Shown here in pieces: positions 4,456 to 13,944 of a stretch of 32,593 bases of DNA. How positions within the stretch are numbered: the stretch's first letter is position 1; every line of letters begins with the position of its first letter. The notes below the pieces were generated by a model. It saw only the letters and a program-made list of their open reading frames with translations, was not told where the DNA came from and made no database searches. Made by a program: the position numbers and the translations under genes. The DNA is taken from assembly GCA_027451445.1 (NCBI GenBank), contig DAIDJG010000245.1, positions 1-32,593 on the forward strand, given 5' to 3'. The stretch is from Singulisphaera sp. GTDB lineage: Bacteria > Planctomycetota > Planctomycetia > Isosphaerales > Isosphaeraceae.

Positions 4456-5021
4456 AGCAACCTCCCATGACCCTAAGTTTACCGCGCCGAGCGTTGCGAT
4501 TCAGGAGTCTGACCGCGCGACTCCCGGCATCGTTACCGCGCGGGAAGAAGCGCGGATCCTGTCCAGGTATGAAATCACGGCAGCTTGTGAGGTCTGTGTT
4601 GATTTCCGGCCTCTCGCTACATCAGACGCAACGAAGTTCTTTCAATTCACGCAAGTGTCTGGTGTTTAGTGCATGGTCCATTTCCGCCGCTTGGACCGTC
4701 CGCTCTCCCTGGAGTTCGGCGCCGGCGGAGTCCAGTTCATAAAATACTGCAGCTCGGCCTGCCTTCGCGGTGAGCATCCCGCCGGTCCCTAAACCGGAGT
4801 CCCGCTACAAACTAGACACATGTGCGCAAGCGCAGCAATTGCGTTGCATTCCCCGCGCGCTTTCCCTTTTCCGCCCCTCCGTTCCGCACGCGCGGGAAAA
4901 TCGCTTCGCGATCCAAATCATACTGGACAAATGCATCTCATCCCGTATAATGGGCGTTGACGGGATGCCAAACCAATTTCCGCCGGGAGGGCCGAGTTCC
5001 CCAACTGAGGGGCACAGCCAC
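4456..5021. other. 566-bp upstream region; no gene seen apart from a promoter
   Basis: No supported gene. A short plus-strand frame at 4467-4742 has no ribosome-binding site and a serine/arginine-rich composition typical of a chance frame. An inverted pair CCCGCGCG (about 4853-4860) and CGCGCGGG (about 4890-4898) encloses a pyrimidine-rich loop. A near-consensus promoter sits at 4924-4951. Confidence 0.5.
4924..4951 (+). promoter_or_regulatory. Sigma-70-type promoter for the TOPRIM/DUF3987-like gene
   Basis: TGGACA (4924-4929, five of six consensus bases) is followed after 16 nt by a perfect TATAAT (4946-4951). Transcription would begin near 4958, which rules out the upstream in-frame ATG at 4770 and favours translation from 4965 or 5022. 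This is the best promoter match I saw in the window. Confidence 0.65.
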
Positions 5022-7097
5022 ATGTCGTCGGTGAGCGAGTGGGACGGGAGGGCGGGGCAACGGCAATTCGCCGAAGAGCTGGAGCGGCGGCCGTCCGAGG
5101 TGGTGTTCGTCACGGCCGACGCGGGAGGGGCGGAGGCGCTGCGGGCTTGGGGATTGCTGGCGTGGGCACGGCCGAGCGCTTGGGACGGAGAAACGCTCCG
5201 GCTCCTCGCGCGGCGCGATGTTGTGATGATCGTCCACGGTCCCAAGGCGAACCCGGAGCAAGCCCGGCGCGATGCCGAGGCGCTGGCGGGCGTGGTCCGG
5301 CGGGTGGGCGTGCTGGTGCCGCGCGAGTCGCCGCAGCACGCGCCGACGCGCGATCTCGGGGAGTACGTCAGGCGGCAGCGGACCATTGGGCTGGGCTCGC
5401 AGGTGCTGCTGATGGAGGCGCAGGCGTGCCTGCGCGGGCAGGTGCCGCGGGTCGAGCCGGTGGAGGCACATGAGGAGTGGCCGCCGTTGCGGCTGGGAGA
5501 GCGACCGCTGGTTGAGCCATTCCCCCTCGATGTGTTGCCAAATACGGTGGCGGAATTGGTCACCGCCGTGGCCCGCGATGCGGGTGCGCCGGTCGACTCC
5601 GCGGCGGTCCCCGCGCTCGTCGCGGCCGGGGCGGCCGTCGGCGGGAATGCGGGGCTCGTGCTCAAGCCGGGCCAGTGTGTGTTCGGTACGCTGCATGCGC
5701 TGAACGTCGGCGAGCCGTCCATCGGTGGCTCGTGGGCGATGTCCGCAGTGATCCAGGCACTGCGCGAGCTCGGTGGCGTGCCGGTTGCGCCCGCGAAGGA
5801 TCTCGTCCGCTGGCTCGATAACCCCGGACGCGGGCTGCTGGTCGCGCGCGAAGATGCCACGACGTGGCTCGCGGACCTGAGCGCTCCGCGCAAGCGCGAG
5901 GGAGAGCCGTCCGCCGACCTCTGGCACCATGCCCTTCGCGGCGTGCCTGGCGGAGCGCAAAAGGCGCCGTTGCTGTCGTTCTGTGGCACCGTGGGCCCCG
6001 AAGTGCTCGGCCACTTCGGCCGAGGCCCGGGGCGAAGGCGCCTCGGCGGGTGGCGGGGAAGCGAGCTGCTCGATCATATGCTCGTCGTGCTGCCGGACCC
6101 CGTTCCGACGGCGTACTGGTCGGACGAAGGCGTCCCCAAAGCAACGACCGACGCCTGGTTTGCCGCGCTGAAATGGCTCAGGCTGCACCAACCGCCGGGG
6201 CCGCCCGGCGACGGGCTCCGGTGCGAGCTCGTCTCGTTTACGGAGGGCGCCAAGGCGGCGTGGGTCGCCTGGTACAACGCCCGCACCGATGAGTTCAACG
6301 CCCCCGGCTGCGACCCGTCGCAGCGCGCGGCCGAGTGCCAGCTTCGGGAGATCACCCCGCGGCTGGCGCTGATCGTTCATTTGCTGGACGTCGCGTTCGA
6401 CCCCGCGCGAAAACCGGGCGATCCCTTGCCGCCGCTGGGGGTCGAGTCGTTGCGCAAGGGTTTGCGGCTGTGGTCGTACTTCCGCGCGCAGCAGCGTCGC
6501 GTGCGCTGGGTGATCTCGGGAGGGGCGCGCGAGCCGGTGGCGGGGGCGATCGTCGACTGGATTCGGCGGACGGGGCGAACGCACTTTTCGGTCAGCGAGC
6601 TGACCGACGCCCTGCGCTGGCTCCGCACGAGGCCGGACGAGCCCGAGTCGGCGCTCGACGCGCTCGAAGCGTGTCATGCCATCCGTCGCCGGGCGGACGC
6701 GCCACGCCCTCCCCGGAGCCCCGGCCGGAAGCAGAGCCCGATCTACGACGTGCACCCAGCGCTCGTGGGTCAGAACGGTGGAGAGGCTGCTACGATGGAT
6801 TCGCGCGGGGAGCCTATTTCGGATTTCTCGGATATTTCGGAGCCGTATTCAACCACGACAGCAGGCATGCCACTCGCAGTTCAAGATGGTGAAGAGACCG
6901 CCGTGACCGACCAGAGTGAGGCGCCTATTTCGGATTTCTCGGATATTTCGGAGCCGTTTTCGCCCACGTCCACGGGCGCGCGGGCGACCTTGGTGGTCCC
7001 AAGAGGCGGCAATGCCGTACCGACCGATTCGCGCGGGGCGCCTATTTCGGATATCTCGGGAGATTGTTGGAAGGAGGCCGGGTGTCGATCTCCGTAA
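5022..7097 (+). CDS. TOPRIM/DUF3987-like primase-helicase relative with degenerate motifs
   Basis: Protein of 691 aa from the ATG at 5022, preceded by GAGGGG at 9 nt; 4965 is an alternative start, and the promoter at 4924-4951 excludes 4770. The N-terminal 120 residues follow the TOPRIM pattern of phage/plasmid primases (VVFVTADAGGAEALRAWGL, then RRDVVMIVHGPKAN), but the catalytic Glu and the Asp-x-Asp are replaced. The middle follows DUF3987 (VAELVTAVARDAGAP, VPALVAAGAAVGGNAGLVLK, later LLSFCGTVGPEVLGHF), yet the segment where a P-loop is expected reads GEPSIGGSWAM without the Lys. The family is linked to mobile-element replication proteins. The C-terminal 120 residues are low-complexity and hold three PISDFSDISEP-type repeats. 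The frame is intact over 2 kb, so a structural or domesticated role is possible. Family assignment is moderate; biochemical role unknown. Confidence 0.7.
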   Translation: MSSVSEWDGRAGQRQFAEELERRPSEVVFVTADAGGAEALRAWGLLAWARPSAWDGETLRLLARRDVVMIVHGPKANPEQARRDAEALAGVVRRVGVLVPRESPQHAPTRDLGEYVRRQRTIGLGSQVLLMEAQACLRGQVPRVEPVEAHEEWPPLRLGERPLVEPFPLDVLPNTVAELVTAVARDAGAPVDSAAVPALVAAGAAVGGNAGLVLKPGQCVFGTLHALNVGEPSIGGSWAMSAVIQALRELGGVPVAPAKDLVRWLDNPGRGLLVAREDATTWLADLSAPRKREGEPSADLWHHALRGVPGGAQKAPLLSFCGTVGPEVLGHFGRGPGRRRLGGWRGSELLDHMLVVLPDPVPTAYWSDEGVPKATTDAWFAALKWLRLHQPPGPPGDGLRCELVSFTEGAKAAWVAWYNARTDEFNAPGCDPSQRAAECQLREITPRLALIVHLLDVAFDPARKPGDPLPPLGVESLRKGLRLWSYFRAQQRRVRWVISGGAREPVAGAIVDWIRRTGRTHFSVSELTDALRWLRTRPDEPESALDALEACHAIRRRADAPRPPRSPGRKQSPIYDVHPALVGQNGGEAATMDSRGEPISDFSDISEPYSTTTAGMPLAVQDGEETAVTDQSEAPISDFSDISEPFSPTSTGARATLVVPRGGNAVPTDSRGAPISDISGDCWKEAGCRSP
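6812..7059 (+). repeat. Three in-frame direct repeats encoding PISDFSDISEP
   Basis: A 35-base unit beginning GCCTATTTCGGATTTCTC occurs identically at 6812-6846 and 6923-6957, and a shorter variant at 7040-7059. Start-to-start spacing is 111 and 117 bases, multiples of three, so the frame and the encoded peptide are kept. Copies one and three also share the preceding GATTCGCGCGGGG. The unit is much more AT-rich than the rest of the gene. Confidence 0.85.
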
Positions 7098-7145: not shown

Positions 7146-7199
7146 CTACGGTTGACGACGCCCCTAAAAGCCCGCATCCCGCATACGTTGCGGTCTTGG

Positions 7200-7340
7200 C
7201 GGCTTCGCGGCCGCATTTCCTCCCTTCGAAGAGACGCAGAGCGCGGGAATGCCGTCCCCGACGCTCTTCGTCTCTTCGAGCCTGGAAAATGCGCCCGCAG
7301 AGCGGGCAAGACGGCATTCCCACATGGGAGCGTGGGAACG
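7200..7340. repeat. Nested palindromic intergenic element
   Basis: Two interlocking inverted repeats. The first is an 18-bp pair with one mismatch (7226-7243 against 7262-7279, arms containing CGAAGAGACG). The second is a perfect 11-bp pair, GGGAATGCCGT (7245-7255) against ACGGCATTCCC (7311-7321). An outer, weaker pair links GCATTTCC near 7213 with GGAAAATGC near 7284. No coding potential. It resembles a non-autonomous dispersed element; copy number in the genome is not visible here. Confidence 0.6.
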
Positions 7341-9889: not shown

Positions 9890-10960
9890 CTACCATACTT
9901 TGGGAGAATCCGCTCCCCCGAGTAGCTCGCGCAGTACGGCTTCGAGCCGGTCGATCTCCGCTTCCGTGCCGACCGTGATCCTCAAACCGTCAGGCCGGCC
10001 GGGGTAGCGCATCAGGCGGACGAGGATCCGTCGCTCCTTCAGGCTCTGATAGACCGCTGAAGCCGGAGGACCGCCGGTGCACCATACAAAGTTCGACTGG
10101 CTGTCGGGAAGGTCGTAACCGAGTGAGCGCATCAGGTTGGTGAGACGCCGACGCGTGGAGAGGATTTTTGAGCGGGTCTGAGCGAGGTATTCCTGGTCGT
10201 CGAGCGCGGCGGCCCCACCGATCAGGGTGAGCGTGTTGCAGTTATACGAGTCCTTCACTTTGATCAGGCCGGCCACGACCTCCGGCTGGGCAATCAGGTA
10301 GCCGAGCCTCAGGCCAGCCAGGCTGTACCCTTTGCTAAAGCTGCGCGTGACGATCACGTTGGGATGGCGCGCGACCAGACCCACACACGACGTTTCCGCG
10401 AAGTCGGCGTACGCCTCATCGACGACGAGAGGGCCGTCGAAGTTTTGCGCGATCTCACTAACGGAATCCGGCGAGAGCGCGGTCCCGGACGGGCTGTTCG
10501 GGTTGGCGAGGAATGCGAGCTTGGCCCCCGAGGCGAGGAAGGCCGCGGGATCCAGGCTCCAGTCGGGCCGATATTCGACGGCAACTTCCCGCGCATTTTG
10601 GAGCTCAACGAGCGTGCGGTAGAGAATGTAGCTGGGCGTCGGACAGAGGACGGGGTCTCCAGGGCCGGCGAACGCCCGCGTGATTATCGTCAAGAGGTCG
10701 TCCGAGCCATTACCGGCAAGCACCATGTCGGGCTCGACCCCGTGCAGCCGTGCGGCCGTTTCGCGAAAGTTCGTCGCGACAGGGTCCGGATAGAGACGCA
10801 AGCGGTCGGTCAATGCCCGCCCGATGGCGTCGAGGGCTTTCGGTGAGGGAGGATAAGGGTTCTCATTCGTGTTCAGCTTGATAAAACCGCCATCGCGCGG
10901 TTGCTCGCCCGGGACGTACCCGGCCATGCGGTCGATGTGCGGTTGAAAGTAACGGCTCAT
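9890..10960 (-). CDS. hisC: Histidinol-phosphate aminotransferase
   Basis: PLP enzyme of fold type I that converts imidazole acetol phosphate to L-histidinol phosphate with glutamate. 356 aa from the ATG at 10960, which gives the family-like start [20 protein letters not shown]. Visible landmarks are [11 protein letters not shown] (about 31-40), the cofactor-pocket NPNSPSG (about 153-159), DEAYADF (Asp about 181) and the PLP lysine in [16 protein letters not shown] (Lys about 210). The upstream in-frame ATGs (10993, 11071) translate the repeat-filled gap and are rejected as starts. The Shine-Dalgarno is weak. It is first of a hisC-hisB-membrane-protein run. Confidence 0.95.
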
Positions 10961-11019
10961 GGAGAGAGATCTCGGGGTATTCCGGCGCGCCATTGGCGAT
11001 CGGGGCAGGTTACTTAATG

Positions 11020-11185
11020 ACAAATGCAAAATGGCAGATGGAAGATGCAATATGGCAAATGGAAGATGCAATATGGCAGATGCCGAAACAGCGGCGACAG
11101 CCTAATTCTTGGGTTCGTGCAATGGTCCGTTAGGCATCGTCTGACATTTCGCATCTGCCATTTTGCATCTCGCATCTAGCATTTT
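11020..11185. repeat. Short tandem repeats and their inverted copy upstream of hisC
   Basis: From about 11020 the words ATGCAAAATGGCAGATGGAAG, ATGCAATATGGCAAATGGAAG and ATGCAATATGGCAGATG follow one another in a step of 21-22 bases. From about 11149 the inverted version appears (GCATCTGCCATTTTGCATC, then GCATCTAGCATTTTGC). The two blocks could pair as a long imperfect hairpin. They fill most of the 235-bp gap between the acetyltransferase and hisC, and are AT-rich compared with the flanks. Confidence 0.75.
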
Positions 11186-11195
11186 GCTAGGGTTG

Positions 11196-11690
11196 TTAGA
11201 TTCGAGGCGGGGCGAGCTCTGCGAGCCGTTGGAGCGAGGTCTCATCGATGCGGTAGACCGTCCAGTCGCTGAGTGGCTGGGCACCTTGCGAGCGGTAGAA
11301 GCCGATGGCGGGCTGGTTCCAGTCCAGCACCGACCATTCGAGCCGCCCAAATCCACGGTCGATCGCCTCCTTGGCGACGGCGGCGAGCAAGGACTTGCCG
11401 ATGCCCTGTCCCCGGTACGCTTCGCGCACGAAGATGTCCTCGAGGTAGAGCCCGGGCTGACCTCGAAACGTGGAAAACGTCACGAAATACAGCGCAAACC
11501 CAGCCGGCTCGCCGCCCATTTCGGCGAGGATCGCCTCGGCGAACGGCCGAGGGCCAAACAGGTGCGAGCGCAGTGCGTCGGGGGTCGCCCGGGCGAAATC
11601 CTCCAGATGCTCGTAGACGGCCAACTCATGAATCAGGCGCACCAGTGCCTCGGCATCATCGGGACGGCATGGGCGAATCGTCGCAGTCAT
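11196..11690 (-). CDS. GNAT-family N-acetyltransferase (SSAT-like)
   Basis: Acetyl-CoA-dependent acetyltransferase of 164 aa. Motif A reads YLEDIFVREAYRGQGIGKSL (about residues 82-101), and RLEWSVLDWNQPAIGFY follows, the pattern typical of the spermidine/thialysine N-acetyltransferase subgroup; an amine or amino-acid analogue substrate is therefore possible but unproven. Its ATG overlaps the stop of the upstream LRR gene (11687-11690, ATGA), which indicates translational coupling. It is a paralogue of the GNAT at 2592-3077 and keeps the conserved DWN stretch that the other lacks. Confidence 0.92.
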   Translation of the reverse strand: MTATIRPCRPDDAEALVRLIHELAVYEHLEDFARATPDALRSHLFGPRPFAEAILAEMGGEPAGFALYFVTFSTFRGQPGLYLEDIFVREAYRGQGIGKSLLAAVAKEAIDRGFGRLEWSVLDWNQPAIGFYRSQGAQPLSDWTVYRIDETSLQRLAELAPPRI

Positions 11691-12451
11691 TCGCCGGTGT
11701 TCTCCTTCGTTCGACTGATGTCCACGTTGGGCAACGCCGCCCTCAACTCCGTGGCACCCGTGAGAGTGACCCGTGTCTCGGAGACATCCAACGTCTTCAG
11801 ATTCGTTAAACCTTTGAGATGTCGCAAGCCGGCATCGGTCACTCGTGTCCGCTCGAGGTTCAAGAGTTCGAGGCTGGTCATGCCCTCGAGGTGGGCAAGG
11901 CCGTCATCCGTAATCGGGTTGCCGACGAGAATCAACTCGCGCAGCTTCGTTAGCGGCTTCACGTGCTTCAGGGCCTTGTCGGAGAGAAGCGGCGGAGGCG
12001 CGGTCACGCCGCCCACGGGACCATCCACACGCGTCAAATCGAGGACTTGCAGGTCGGGGAGCAATTTGAGGTCCCTCAGGCCGAGCTCGCTGATATCGAA
12101 CGCGTTCGCGAGATCGAGCGATTCTAAACGATGGAGGCCCGTCATCCTCGCCATGTCCAAATTCGTAAACCGTCCGTCCGTTCGAGAGTTGACCGAGAAC
12201 GACACGCTCGTGAATCCGCCTTGCTTCCAGTTGTCTTCGTTGATCACCCAGTCGACGCTCGCGCCGGAGGCCATCAAGTACAGCGTGGACCGAAGATGCT
12301 TGAAAACGGGCGGCCCCAGGATGAGTGAGACCAGAATGAGAACGGCCAGAACCATCCGTGCAACCCAGCTCCGGACTTGCCGCCGGCGTCTGAAGCGCAT
12401 CGCGTCTTCGGGAGTAATGATCGGCTCGGCTGAGATTGTCGCGGTACTCAT
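11687..12451 (-). CDS. Membrane-anchored leucine-rich-repeat protein
   Basis: 254 aa from the ATG at 12451, which has GGGAGG about 8-9 nt upstream; the in-frame ATG at 12493 would start inside hisD. A basic cytoplasmic head (FRRRRQVR) is followed by one hydrophobic helix (about residues 30-50), so the rest is probably extracytoplasmic. The C-terminal two thirds hold at least four leucine-rich repeats, for example LESLDLANAFDISELGLRDL, LRELILVGNPITDDGLAHL, LELLNLERTRVTDAGLRHL and LKTLDVSETRV. The repeats are of the TDAGL type, abundant in planctomycetes. Such proteins usually mediate binding; the partner is unknown. It starts 25 nt after the hisD stop. Confidence 0.85.
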   Translation of the reverse strand: MSTATISAEPIITPEDAMRFRRRRQVRSWVARMVLAVLILVSLILGPPVFKHLRSTLYLMASGASVDWVINEDNWKQGGFTSVSFSVNSRTDGRFTNLDMARMTGLHRLESLDLANAFDISELGLRDLKLLPDLQVLDLTRVDGPVGGVTAPPPLLSDKALKHVKPLTKLRELILVGNPITDDGLAHLEGMTSLELLNLERTRVTDAGLRHLKGLTNLKTLDVSETRVTLTGATELRAALPNVDISRTKENTGE

Positions 12452-12476
12452 CCACCTGCCTCCCTTTCCCCGGCCA

Positions 12477-13853
12477 TTACTGGTCCGCGGCAAAGTCCTC
12501 CAGCCGCACGTCCACGCTGTATCGATGCGCGGTCAGACCTTCCTTGTCGGCGAGCATGCGCACGTCGGGTGCGATGGCAGCGAGGCCTTCCCGATTCACA
12601 TAGATCAGGCTCGTTCGTTTCAAAAAATCGTTGGAGCAAAGCCCGGAGGCCCAGCGCGCCGTGCCGCCGGTCGGCAAGACGTGCGACGGGCCGGCGGCGT
12701 AATCGCCAACAGCCACAGGCGTGTCATGCCCGAGGAAAATCGCGCCCGCGTTCGTCAGTCGTTCGGCGAGCCGGTCGGGGTCGGACGTCGAAACATGGAG
12801 GTGCTCGGGGGCGATCTGGTTCGAAAGCGCGATGGCTTCCTCCTCATCACGGACCAGGATCAACGCGCCGAATTTCTCGAGGCTATCGCGCGCCAGATCA
12901 CCTCGGCTGAGGCGTTCGAGCTGCACGACGAGGGCGTCGGCCACCCGGTCGATGAGATCGGCTTCCCAGGTGATCAGAATACTGGCGCCCGGAGAGTGCT
13001 CGGCCTGACTGATCAGGTCCGATGCGACGAAGCGCGGGTCGGCTGTCCAGTCGGCGATCAAGACGACCTCGCTCGGTCCCGCGATGCTATCGATATCGAC
13101 CTCGCCGTAAACCTGCCGCTTGGCCAACGCGACGAACAGGTTTCCGGGCCCGACGATCTTGTCGACCGCCGGGATCCCCGCCGCACCGTAGGCCAGGGCC
13201 GCGACCGCCTGTGCGCCGCCGATCCGATGCACTTCCGTGACACCCAACGTGTGGCACGCCGCGAGCAGGTCCGTGTTGTACCCTCCAAACGGCGTGGGAG
13301 GCACGACCACGGCAATCTCTTCGACCCCAGCCGCTTGTGCGGGCACAACCGTCATCAGCAACGACGAGGGATAGGCCGCCGCCCCGCCGGGAATGCAAAC
13401 GCCGACGCGCCGGAGCGGACGATACCGCAGTTGCAGCTCGCTGTTCGGCCCTTGCCGCATGATGGCGTCGCGATTGAGGATGCCCGACTGAAACGCAAGG
13501 ATATTGTTGCGTACCCTCCGGAGCGTGCGCAAGTACGCGGGGTCCGCCAACTGGTGGGCGTTCGCAAGCTCTTCGGGCGTGACGTGCACCTCGTGCGGTT
13601 CAAGCGTCACGTTGTCGAGCTTCGCGGTGTACTCGAGCACCGCGTCGAGCCCTCGGCACTGCACGTCGGCGCAAATGCGCTCGACGACCTGCTGGGGGGT
13701 GAGCGGCTCACCGAACGCCGCGATCGTGCGAGCCCGGCCCTGGGGACTGACCAGGTTGCCCTTTGGGCTGAGCTGGCGCCGGAGCTCCTGGATGGCCTCG
13801 CGCGCATCGACACTGGCGCAATCAATTCGGCAAATATTCAGGGTCGTGGACAT
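12477..13853 (-). CDS. hisD: Histidinol dehydrogenase
   Basis: Zn- and NAD-dependent enzyme that oxidises L-histidinol to L-histidine, the last step of the pathway. 458 aa, slightly longer than the usual 430 because of an N-terminal extension of about 20 residues. Key residues are in place: zinc ligands Gln and His in SQAEHSPGA (283, 286), Asp 384 in VGDYAAGPSH, His 443 near the C-terminus, and the catalytic Glu-His in APEHLHV (350-351). The NAD-site glycines (VCIPGGAAAYPSS, KIVGPGN) are present. First gene of a minus-strand unit hisD-LRR-GNAT, divergent from the threonine aldolase gene. Confidence 0.97.
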   Translation of the reverse strand: MSTTLNICRIDCASVDAREAIQELRRQLSPKGNLVSPQGRARTIAAFGEPLTPQQVVERICADVQCRGLDAVLEYTAKLDNVTLEPHEVHVTPEELANAHQLADPAYLRTLRRVRNNILAFQSGILNRDAIMRQGPNSELQLRYRPLRRVGVCIPGGAAAYPSSLLMTVVPAQAAGVEEIAVVVPPTPFGGYNTDLLAACHTLGVTEVHRIGGAQAVAALAYGAAGIPAVDKIVGPGNLFVALAKRQVYGEVDIDSIAGPSEVVLIADWTADPRFVASDLISQAEHSPGASILITWEADLIDRVADALVVQLERLSRGDLARDSLEKFGALILVRDEEEAIALSNQIAPEHLHVSTSDPDRLAERLTNAGAIFLGHDTPVAVGDYAAGPSHVLPTGGTARWASGLCSNDFLKRTSLIYVNREGLAAIAPDVRMLADKEGLTAHRYSVDVRLEDFAADQ

Positions 13854-13889
13854 CGATCGCGGGCTCTCCGCCGGGGTTGGAATGGACCT

Positions 13890-13897
13890 ATTCTATA
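13890..13897 (-). promoter_or_regulatory. Possible -10 element of hisD
   Basis: TATAGAAT on the minus strand, 37-44 nt upstream of the hisD ATG, in the divergent hisD/ltaE spacer. No clear -35 hexamer lies at the expected distance, so this is a weak call. Confidence 0.3.
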
Positions 13898-13944
13898 GGC
13901 GCGAAGCGGCCTCGTCTTTATTTTTTTCGGCGAAGTTCCGAAGG

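Follow-up and report, generated by a model that had tools for sequence, protein, structure and literature searches.

A probable catalytically dead TOPRIM-DUF3987 paralogue with iterons in the tail of its own gene

Introduction

Why would a bacterial chromosome keep, in open frame, a gene for a replication protein that seems to have lost both of its active sites? The question is raised by a gene in a 32,593-nucleotide stretch of Singulisphaera sp. DNA (hereafter, the window), for which an earlier note had proposed a TOPRIM domain joined to a DUF3987-like part. The association of DUF3987 with mobile elements is already known: the domain has been described as a predicted mobile-element helicase (PMC5862659), and a DUF3987 model detects the PICMI primase, which takes part in satellite replication (PMC10803314). 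Our analysis makes it very likely that the window gene is a Rep paralogue that is catalytically dead and has been maintained by selection. A C-terminal winged-helix-like region, iterons and paralogues, all overlooked in the earlier note, are described together with the degenerate domains (Table 1).

Results

An intact gene behind a conserved promoter

The reading frame is indeed intact over 2 kb, with 691 codons and no stop. An alternative upstream start exists (GTG at 4770); the ATG at 5022 is the position shared with paralogues in the alignment, and it sits after the conserved promoter. This promoter-like site is the best in the window, as had been stated, and the same block is found upstream of the G001 orthologue and three paralogues in G000. 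Here G000 is the genome of the window (10.9 Mb, 622 contigs) and G001 the only congener searched for paralogues.

Several other elements lie in the window. Two long imperfect palindromes, at 7189-7316 and 2417-2593, are 72-74% self-complementary, and copies of the region 2329-2414 are found behind the paralogues on contigs C74, C378 and C135. Two arrays of 21-nt tandem repeats (11022-11083 and 11140-11187) flank the divergent gap between the ORFs 9890-11071 (-) and 11163-13898 (+).

Table 1. Positions in the window of the gene, its domains and the associated DNA elements.
Feature	Position	Strand	Basis
Promoter-like site TGGACA-N16-TATAAT	4924..4951	+	11/12 match
CDS, degenerate TOPRIM-DUF3987-winged helix protein	5022..7097	+	691 aa, frame intact
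Degenerate TOPRIM domain, aa 10-121	5049..5384	+	HMM link to intact TOPRIMs; structure model
Position of the catalytic Glu, here Ala32	5115..5117	+	Alignments
Position of Asp-x-Asp, here His72-Gly-Pro74	5235..5243	+	Alignments
DUF3987 AAA+ helicase-like core, aa 170-500, predicted MCM-like fold	5529..6521	+	Pfam; structure model
Walker-A remnant GEPSIGGSWAM, Lys replaced by Gly236 (5727-5729)	5709..5741	+	Alignment
Walker-B acidic pair, ED not DE, aa 277-278	5850..5855	+	Alignment
C-terminal winged-helix-like region, aa 505-580	6534..6761	+	Model secondary structure; dN/dS 0.10-0.17 among G000 copies
Iteron array 1, ATTTCGGAT TTCTCGGAT ATTTCGGAG	6816..6842	+	9-bp direct repeats
Iteron array 2, sequence as array 1	6927..6953	+	9-bp direct repeats
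Iteron array 3, two nonamers, ATTTCGGAT ATCTCGGGA	7044..7061	+	9-bp direct repeats

Both catalytic centers are altered

The N-terminal domain had been read as following the TOPRIM pattern, and a profile search together with structure models bears this out, giving a predicted beta-alpha-beta fold of the DnaG/Twinkle type. A Pfam scan of the protein matched no TOPRIM model. A profile of the N-terminal domains of eight genus members, searched against a set of 2,688 ORFs, reached the intact TOPRIM domain of planctomycete TOPRIM-DUF3987 fusions with a best E-value of 1.6e-7. The model of residues 1-140 (pLDDT 80.6) matched the TOPRIM domains of DnaG, Twinkle and T7 gp4 with Z-scores of 10.6 (4edg), 10.3, 10.2 and 9.6, unrelated rows in the same comparison scoring clearly below these, near 5, and its top 20 structural matches were TOPRIM proteins or were annotated near them; the alignment behind this model held two intact TOPRIM rows, so that the result leans toward TOPRIM. 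Strands and helices follow one another in the same order in the full-length model, for which no TOPRIM rows were used. Foldseek with the N-terminal model gave no confident match, and the TOPRIM matches came from structural re-alignment. The catalytic residues are altered as claimed: the window protein reads VTADAG and IVHGPKAN where a fusion protein of Iodidimonas reads VTEGEK and WPDHDQAG, and neither the catalytic Glu nor the Asp-x-Asp is present (A32, H72 and P74).

The assignment to DUF3987 rests on a Pfam match above the curated cut-off and on the AAA+ helicase fold of the predicted model. DUF3987 (PF13148), the sole Pfam domain found, scored 52.8 bits (E 4.7e-14; cut-off 27), far under the score of intact members. 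One profile search of the PDB returned no sequence relative, and the predicted core (residues 170-493) matched MCM helicases with a Z-score of 16.3 and an rmsd of 3.9 over 260 aligned residues. The P-loop does lack its Lys: the remnant GEPSIGGSWAM stands where relatives have VGAPTAGKSPAM, with Gly236 in place of the Lys. The replacement varies among subclades (G, A, M or T), and nearby Arg positions (GxDR and DGFxxR) are also gone in the window protein. Judged from these residues, the protein is a DUF3987 member by descent, not a working ATPase. Behind the core, residues 505-577 of the model follow a helix-strand-helix-helix-strand pattern, and some of the MCM alignments reach residue 580.

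A Lys-less clade under purifying selection

The gene has at least five copies in G000 (in the window and on contigs C74, C16, C135 and C378). Contigs C1, C135 and C378 break inside paralogues, which makes five a minimum, and we take C1 to be the 5´ part of the C135 or the C378 copy because the ends overlap by about 125 identical bases. A contig search with the window protein alone gave no match. G001 has one orthologue, with 57-58% identity, and further Lys-less copies. Homology between copies is limited to about the gene and short flanks, and the neighborhoods differ. The frame is open in every full-length copy and in three fragments at contig edges. In G000 there are also relic tails of the family (C582:38982-39209 and C131:84-109), which have C-terminal peptide homology and iterons and from which the remainder of the gene is absent. 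No intact DUF3987 gene was found in G000, a fragmented assembly, and the intact DUF3987 gene of G001 carries iterons that differ from those of the window.

A branch with 99/99 support sets all nine Lys-less proteins apart, and their nearest neighbor in the tree is a Lys-bearing protein of G016. The window protein has 40-44% identity to the G001 subclade, which makes the clade a deep one, and the suggestion of a new subfamily is upheld by this monophyly. The Lys was lost before the copies arose; dN/dS among them therefore measures selection on an already changed protein. By a simple Nei-Gojobori count on these GC-rich genes, dN/dS was about 0.29 for the TOPRIM domain (window versus its two full-length copies; one comparison in which changes were very few gave higher values, up to 1.0), 0.23-0.35 for the DUF3987 part between copies, one short fragment excepted, and about 0.5-1.7 for the tail. 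The strongest purifying selection within the protein falls on the winged-helix-like region (0.10-0.17), and within the subclade of the window dN/dS is near 0.3-0.5. Purifying selection after the loss, a conserved promoter and a single Lys-less clade strongly support the earlier view that this is not a simple pseudogene. The loss of both active sites withstood the profile search, two structure models, the alignment of relatives, dN/dS and the tree.

Iterons in the drifting tail

Three arrays of nonamers lie in the tail of the gene (Table 1). Across the 11 complete arrays of G000 the TCGGA core is invariant, and Asp codons are GAT in 22 of 22 cases, compared with 11 of 30 in the gene body. It seems that the iterons are conserved as DNA in an otherwise drifting tail; since the copies share ancestry, the codon pattern is suggestive, not conclusive. 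The window arrays are all on one strand and lack the inverted second array of many intact relatives, and no strongly AT-rich stretch follows the stop codon. In G047, a relative that has the Lys, the iterons share the TCGGA core and are inverted. Two other readings of the repeats were considered. The ISDFSDISE repeats could matter as peptide, an explanation that was dropped because in relatives the element shifts frame or falls past the stop codon. The inverted repeats could be terminators; as the arms in G016 hold unequal numbers of nonamers, this reading was not followed, and it may apply at some loci.

Nonamers behind other DUF3987 genes

Relatives, gathered with an alignment of intact DUF3987 members, have locus-specific nonamers at their 3´ ends, often with an inverted second array. 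Some of these nonamers fall after the stop codon; others are part of the final codons, where their frame varies. They occur also in alphaproteobacteria and Hydrogenedentes, and in the Streptococcus phage Javan191 nonamers flank an AT-rich spacer behind the primase/helicase gene. Among 118 non-redundant DUF3987 genes, 51 had lag-9 or inverted repeats within -200 to +150 of the stop codon, compared with 4 of 118 for an interior control; the two-copy array threshold was chosen after examples had been seen, so the counts are descriptive (a strict three-copy threshold gave few matches), and interior coding sequence is an imperfect control for intergenic sequence. The two 150-nt bins that adjoin the stop codon held 11 and 10 lag-9 repeats (21 in sum), and every other bin 0-2; with any other lag between 5 and 15 no bin exceeded 3, and the same two bins summed to 0-4. 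Sequence near the stop codon is richer in AT than the gene interior, a difference confounded by coding versus intergenic sequence.

Example loci with 3´ iterons, often inverted across a spacer, are L046, L047, L054, L176, L177 and L247:4407-4560, from several phyla. At L046 (G001:C492:49010-50467), an inverted repeat that is nearly perfect and a stretch rich in AT come after an intact gene for a primase-polymerase-like and DUF3987 protein. As expected of integrative elements, six loci from planctomycetes and one from Hydrogenedentes have a phage-type integrase gene close behind the DUF3987 gene.

Elements just behind rep genes have precedents: SaPI Rep and SCC Cch2 recognize iterons directly behind their own gene through a C-terminal origin-recognition domain (PMC7581432), and pRN1 requires a stem-loop just downstream of orf904 (PMC4234260). 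Given these, the natural reading of the 3´ repeats is a replication origin, and we propose the 3´ nonamer element, by analogy, as a candidate origin of DUF3987 replicons.

Dispersed nonamer sites

G000 has 58 sites with the triple nonamer or a close variant of it and none with a reversed control pattern. Gene tails account for part of these; most lie elsewhere, many of them in interrelated, palindrome-containing repeats at least about 160 bases long. Palindromic repeats with triple nonamers are dispersed over contigs C114, C176, C274, C306, C425, C534, C610 and others. With a stricter pattern, seven other genomes of the family gave two sites, both in G001. The iterons of the other dead copies of G001, when sought in that genome, gave only 3 sites, and the dispersal is thus not general. 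The likeness of the dispersed nonamers to the window iterons, within palindromic repeats, may be coincidental to the protein.

Discussion

Among the roles guessed at in the earlier note, a domesticated replication protein or a regulatory decoy fits best, by inference. The results above show the descent, the lost residues, the single Lys-less clade, the selection after the loss and the iterons conserved in the drifting tail, and on them we build the following course. The ancestor was the replication initiator of an integrative mobile element, a single protein that united a primase, a helicase and an origin-binding domain. Both catalytic centers were lost, the helicase Lys once, in the ancestor of the sampled genus members, and the gene multiplied in the chromosome and has remained under purifying selection. 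Its mode of action would most probably be sequence-specific DNA binding: the winged-helix region may recognize nonamers with the TCGGA core at the end of the gene that encodes it, and probably also the nonamer copies dispersed in the genome. That the window protein binds the nonamers is, by analogy with known initiators, likely. As it could neither open nor prime the iterons that it occupied, it would repress its own gene and compete with iteron-bearing replicons. We give even chances to the whole of this reading, a dead Rep with iteron binding kept for these two roles, and the repressor or decoy role within it is a guess from analogy. An opponent is conceivable, since G047 is Lys-bearing and has the TCGGA core and inverted arrays; none is present in the G000 assembly. 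The lack of an intact DUF3987 gene in G000, and the different iterons of the intact one in G001, speak against an opposing role. Two further points count against the reading: the window tail has direct arrays only, and the dispersed nonamers sit in complex palindromic repeats that may have no connection with the protein.

The copies could instead be decaying remnants of a once-mobile element, their low dN/dS reflecting residual transfer or gene conversion. The relic tails on C582 and C131, the different neighborhoods of copies whose homology is confined to about the gene, and a Pfam score far below that of intact members would all fit decay. However, no full-length copy and none of the three fragments at contig edges has a broken frame, the congener has kept the promoter, and the clade is deep and yet retains dN/dS values near 0.3-0.5 in the subclade of the window; we thus consider decay unlikely. 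Improbable, too, is a domesticated system in which the dead Rep paralogues and the many iteron repeats scattered over the genome make up a DNA-binding network that keeps iteron-bearing mobile elements silent or organizes the chromosome.

A related proposal, that the protein has been exapted as a genome-organizing or regulatory factor binding dispersed nonamers chromosome-wide, draws on the 58 sites in G000, mostly outside gene tails and in interrelated repeats, with none for the reversed control, and on the mere 2 sites in G001, which has a single orthologue. The repeats, however, resemble self-propagating palindromic elements, the nonamer likeness could be chance, and the comparison of site numbers is one of two genomes, all of which leaves this role doubtful.

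Eukaryotic MCM helicases are mixed hexamers and offer a precedent for a non-catalytic subunit in a mixed oligomer with an active helicase. The MCM-like fold predicted for the core would suit such a subunit, as would the intact primase-DUF3987 protein of G001 (C492), but the fragmented G000 assembly (622 contigs) has no intact DUF3987 partner, and we regard this arrangement as very unlikely. That the protein is still catalytic, with residues supplied at other positions, is scarcely credible: its TOPRIM and DUF3987 parts are also under purifying selection, but the TOPRIM acidic positions, the Walker-A Lys and the Arg positions have all changed together, and the substitute for the Lys varies by subclade.

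A literature search, mostly without subscription journals, found no dead DUF3987 clade and no 3´ nonamer element of DUF3987 genes, which hints that both are novel. Nor did the papers covered by it say at which site DUF3987 replicons begin to replicate. Dead Rep paralogues that persist under selection are candidates for defense or regulation by origin competition, of which few cases have been documented. The candidate origin element of DUF3987 replicons was an unexpected by-product of the analysis, and it allows a direct and cheap test of where replication starts in these replicons, which include phage satellites and integrative elements.

The closest known relatives are the DUF3987 primase-helicases such as the PICMI primase, which are alike in descent, domain order and 3´ iterons; the window gene differs in that both centers are lost, no integrase adjoins it and the chromosome holds several copies. 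SaPI Rep and SCC Cch2 share the iterons at the 3´ end, but are helicases of other families whose active sites are intact, in contrast to those of the window protein. Orf904 of pRN1 is likewise a replication protein with a required element just 3´ of its gene, but pRN1 is an active plasmid with a stem-loop, where the window gene has tandem nonamers. The step from iterons to function is made by analogy, with SaPI and SCC as models for recognition, RepR´ for repression and Odn for origin attack. RepR´ of pIGRK is a Rep-derived antagonist, a form of Rep that represses (PMC6854812), and Odn of ICP1 is an origin-directed nuclease, a Rep-derived domain turned against the origin (PMC8263062). Each is related to Rep and counters replication by binding an origin; the first is a truncated version of an active protein and the second a nuclease, whereas the window protein is most likely a full-length dead paralogue.
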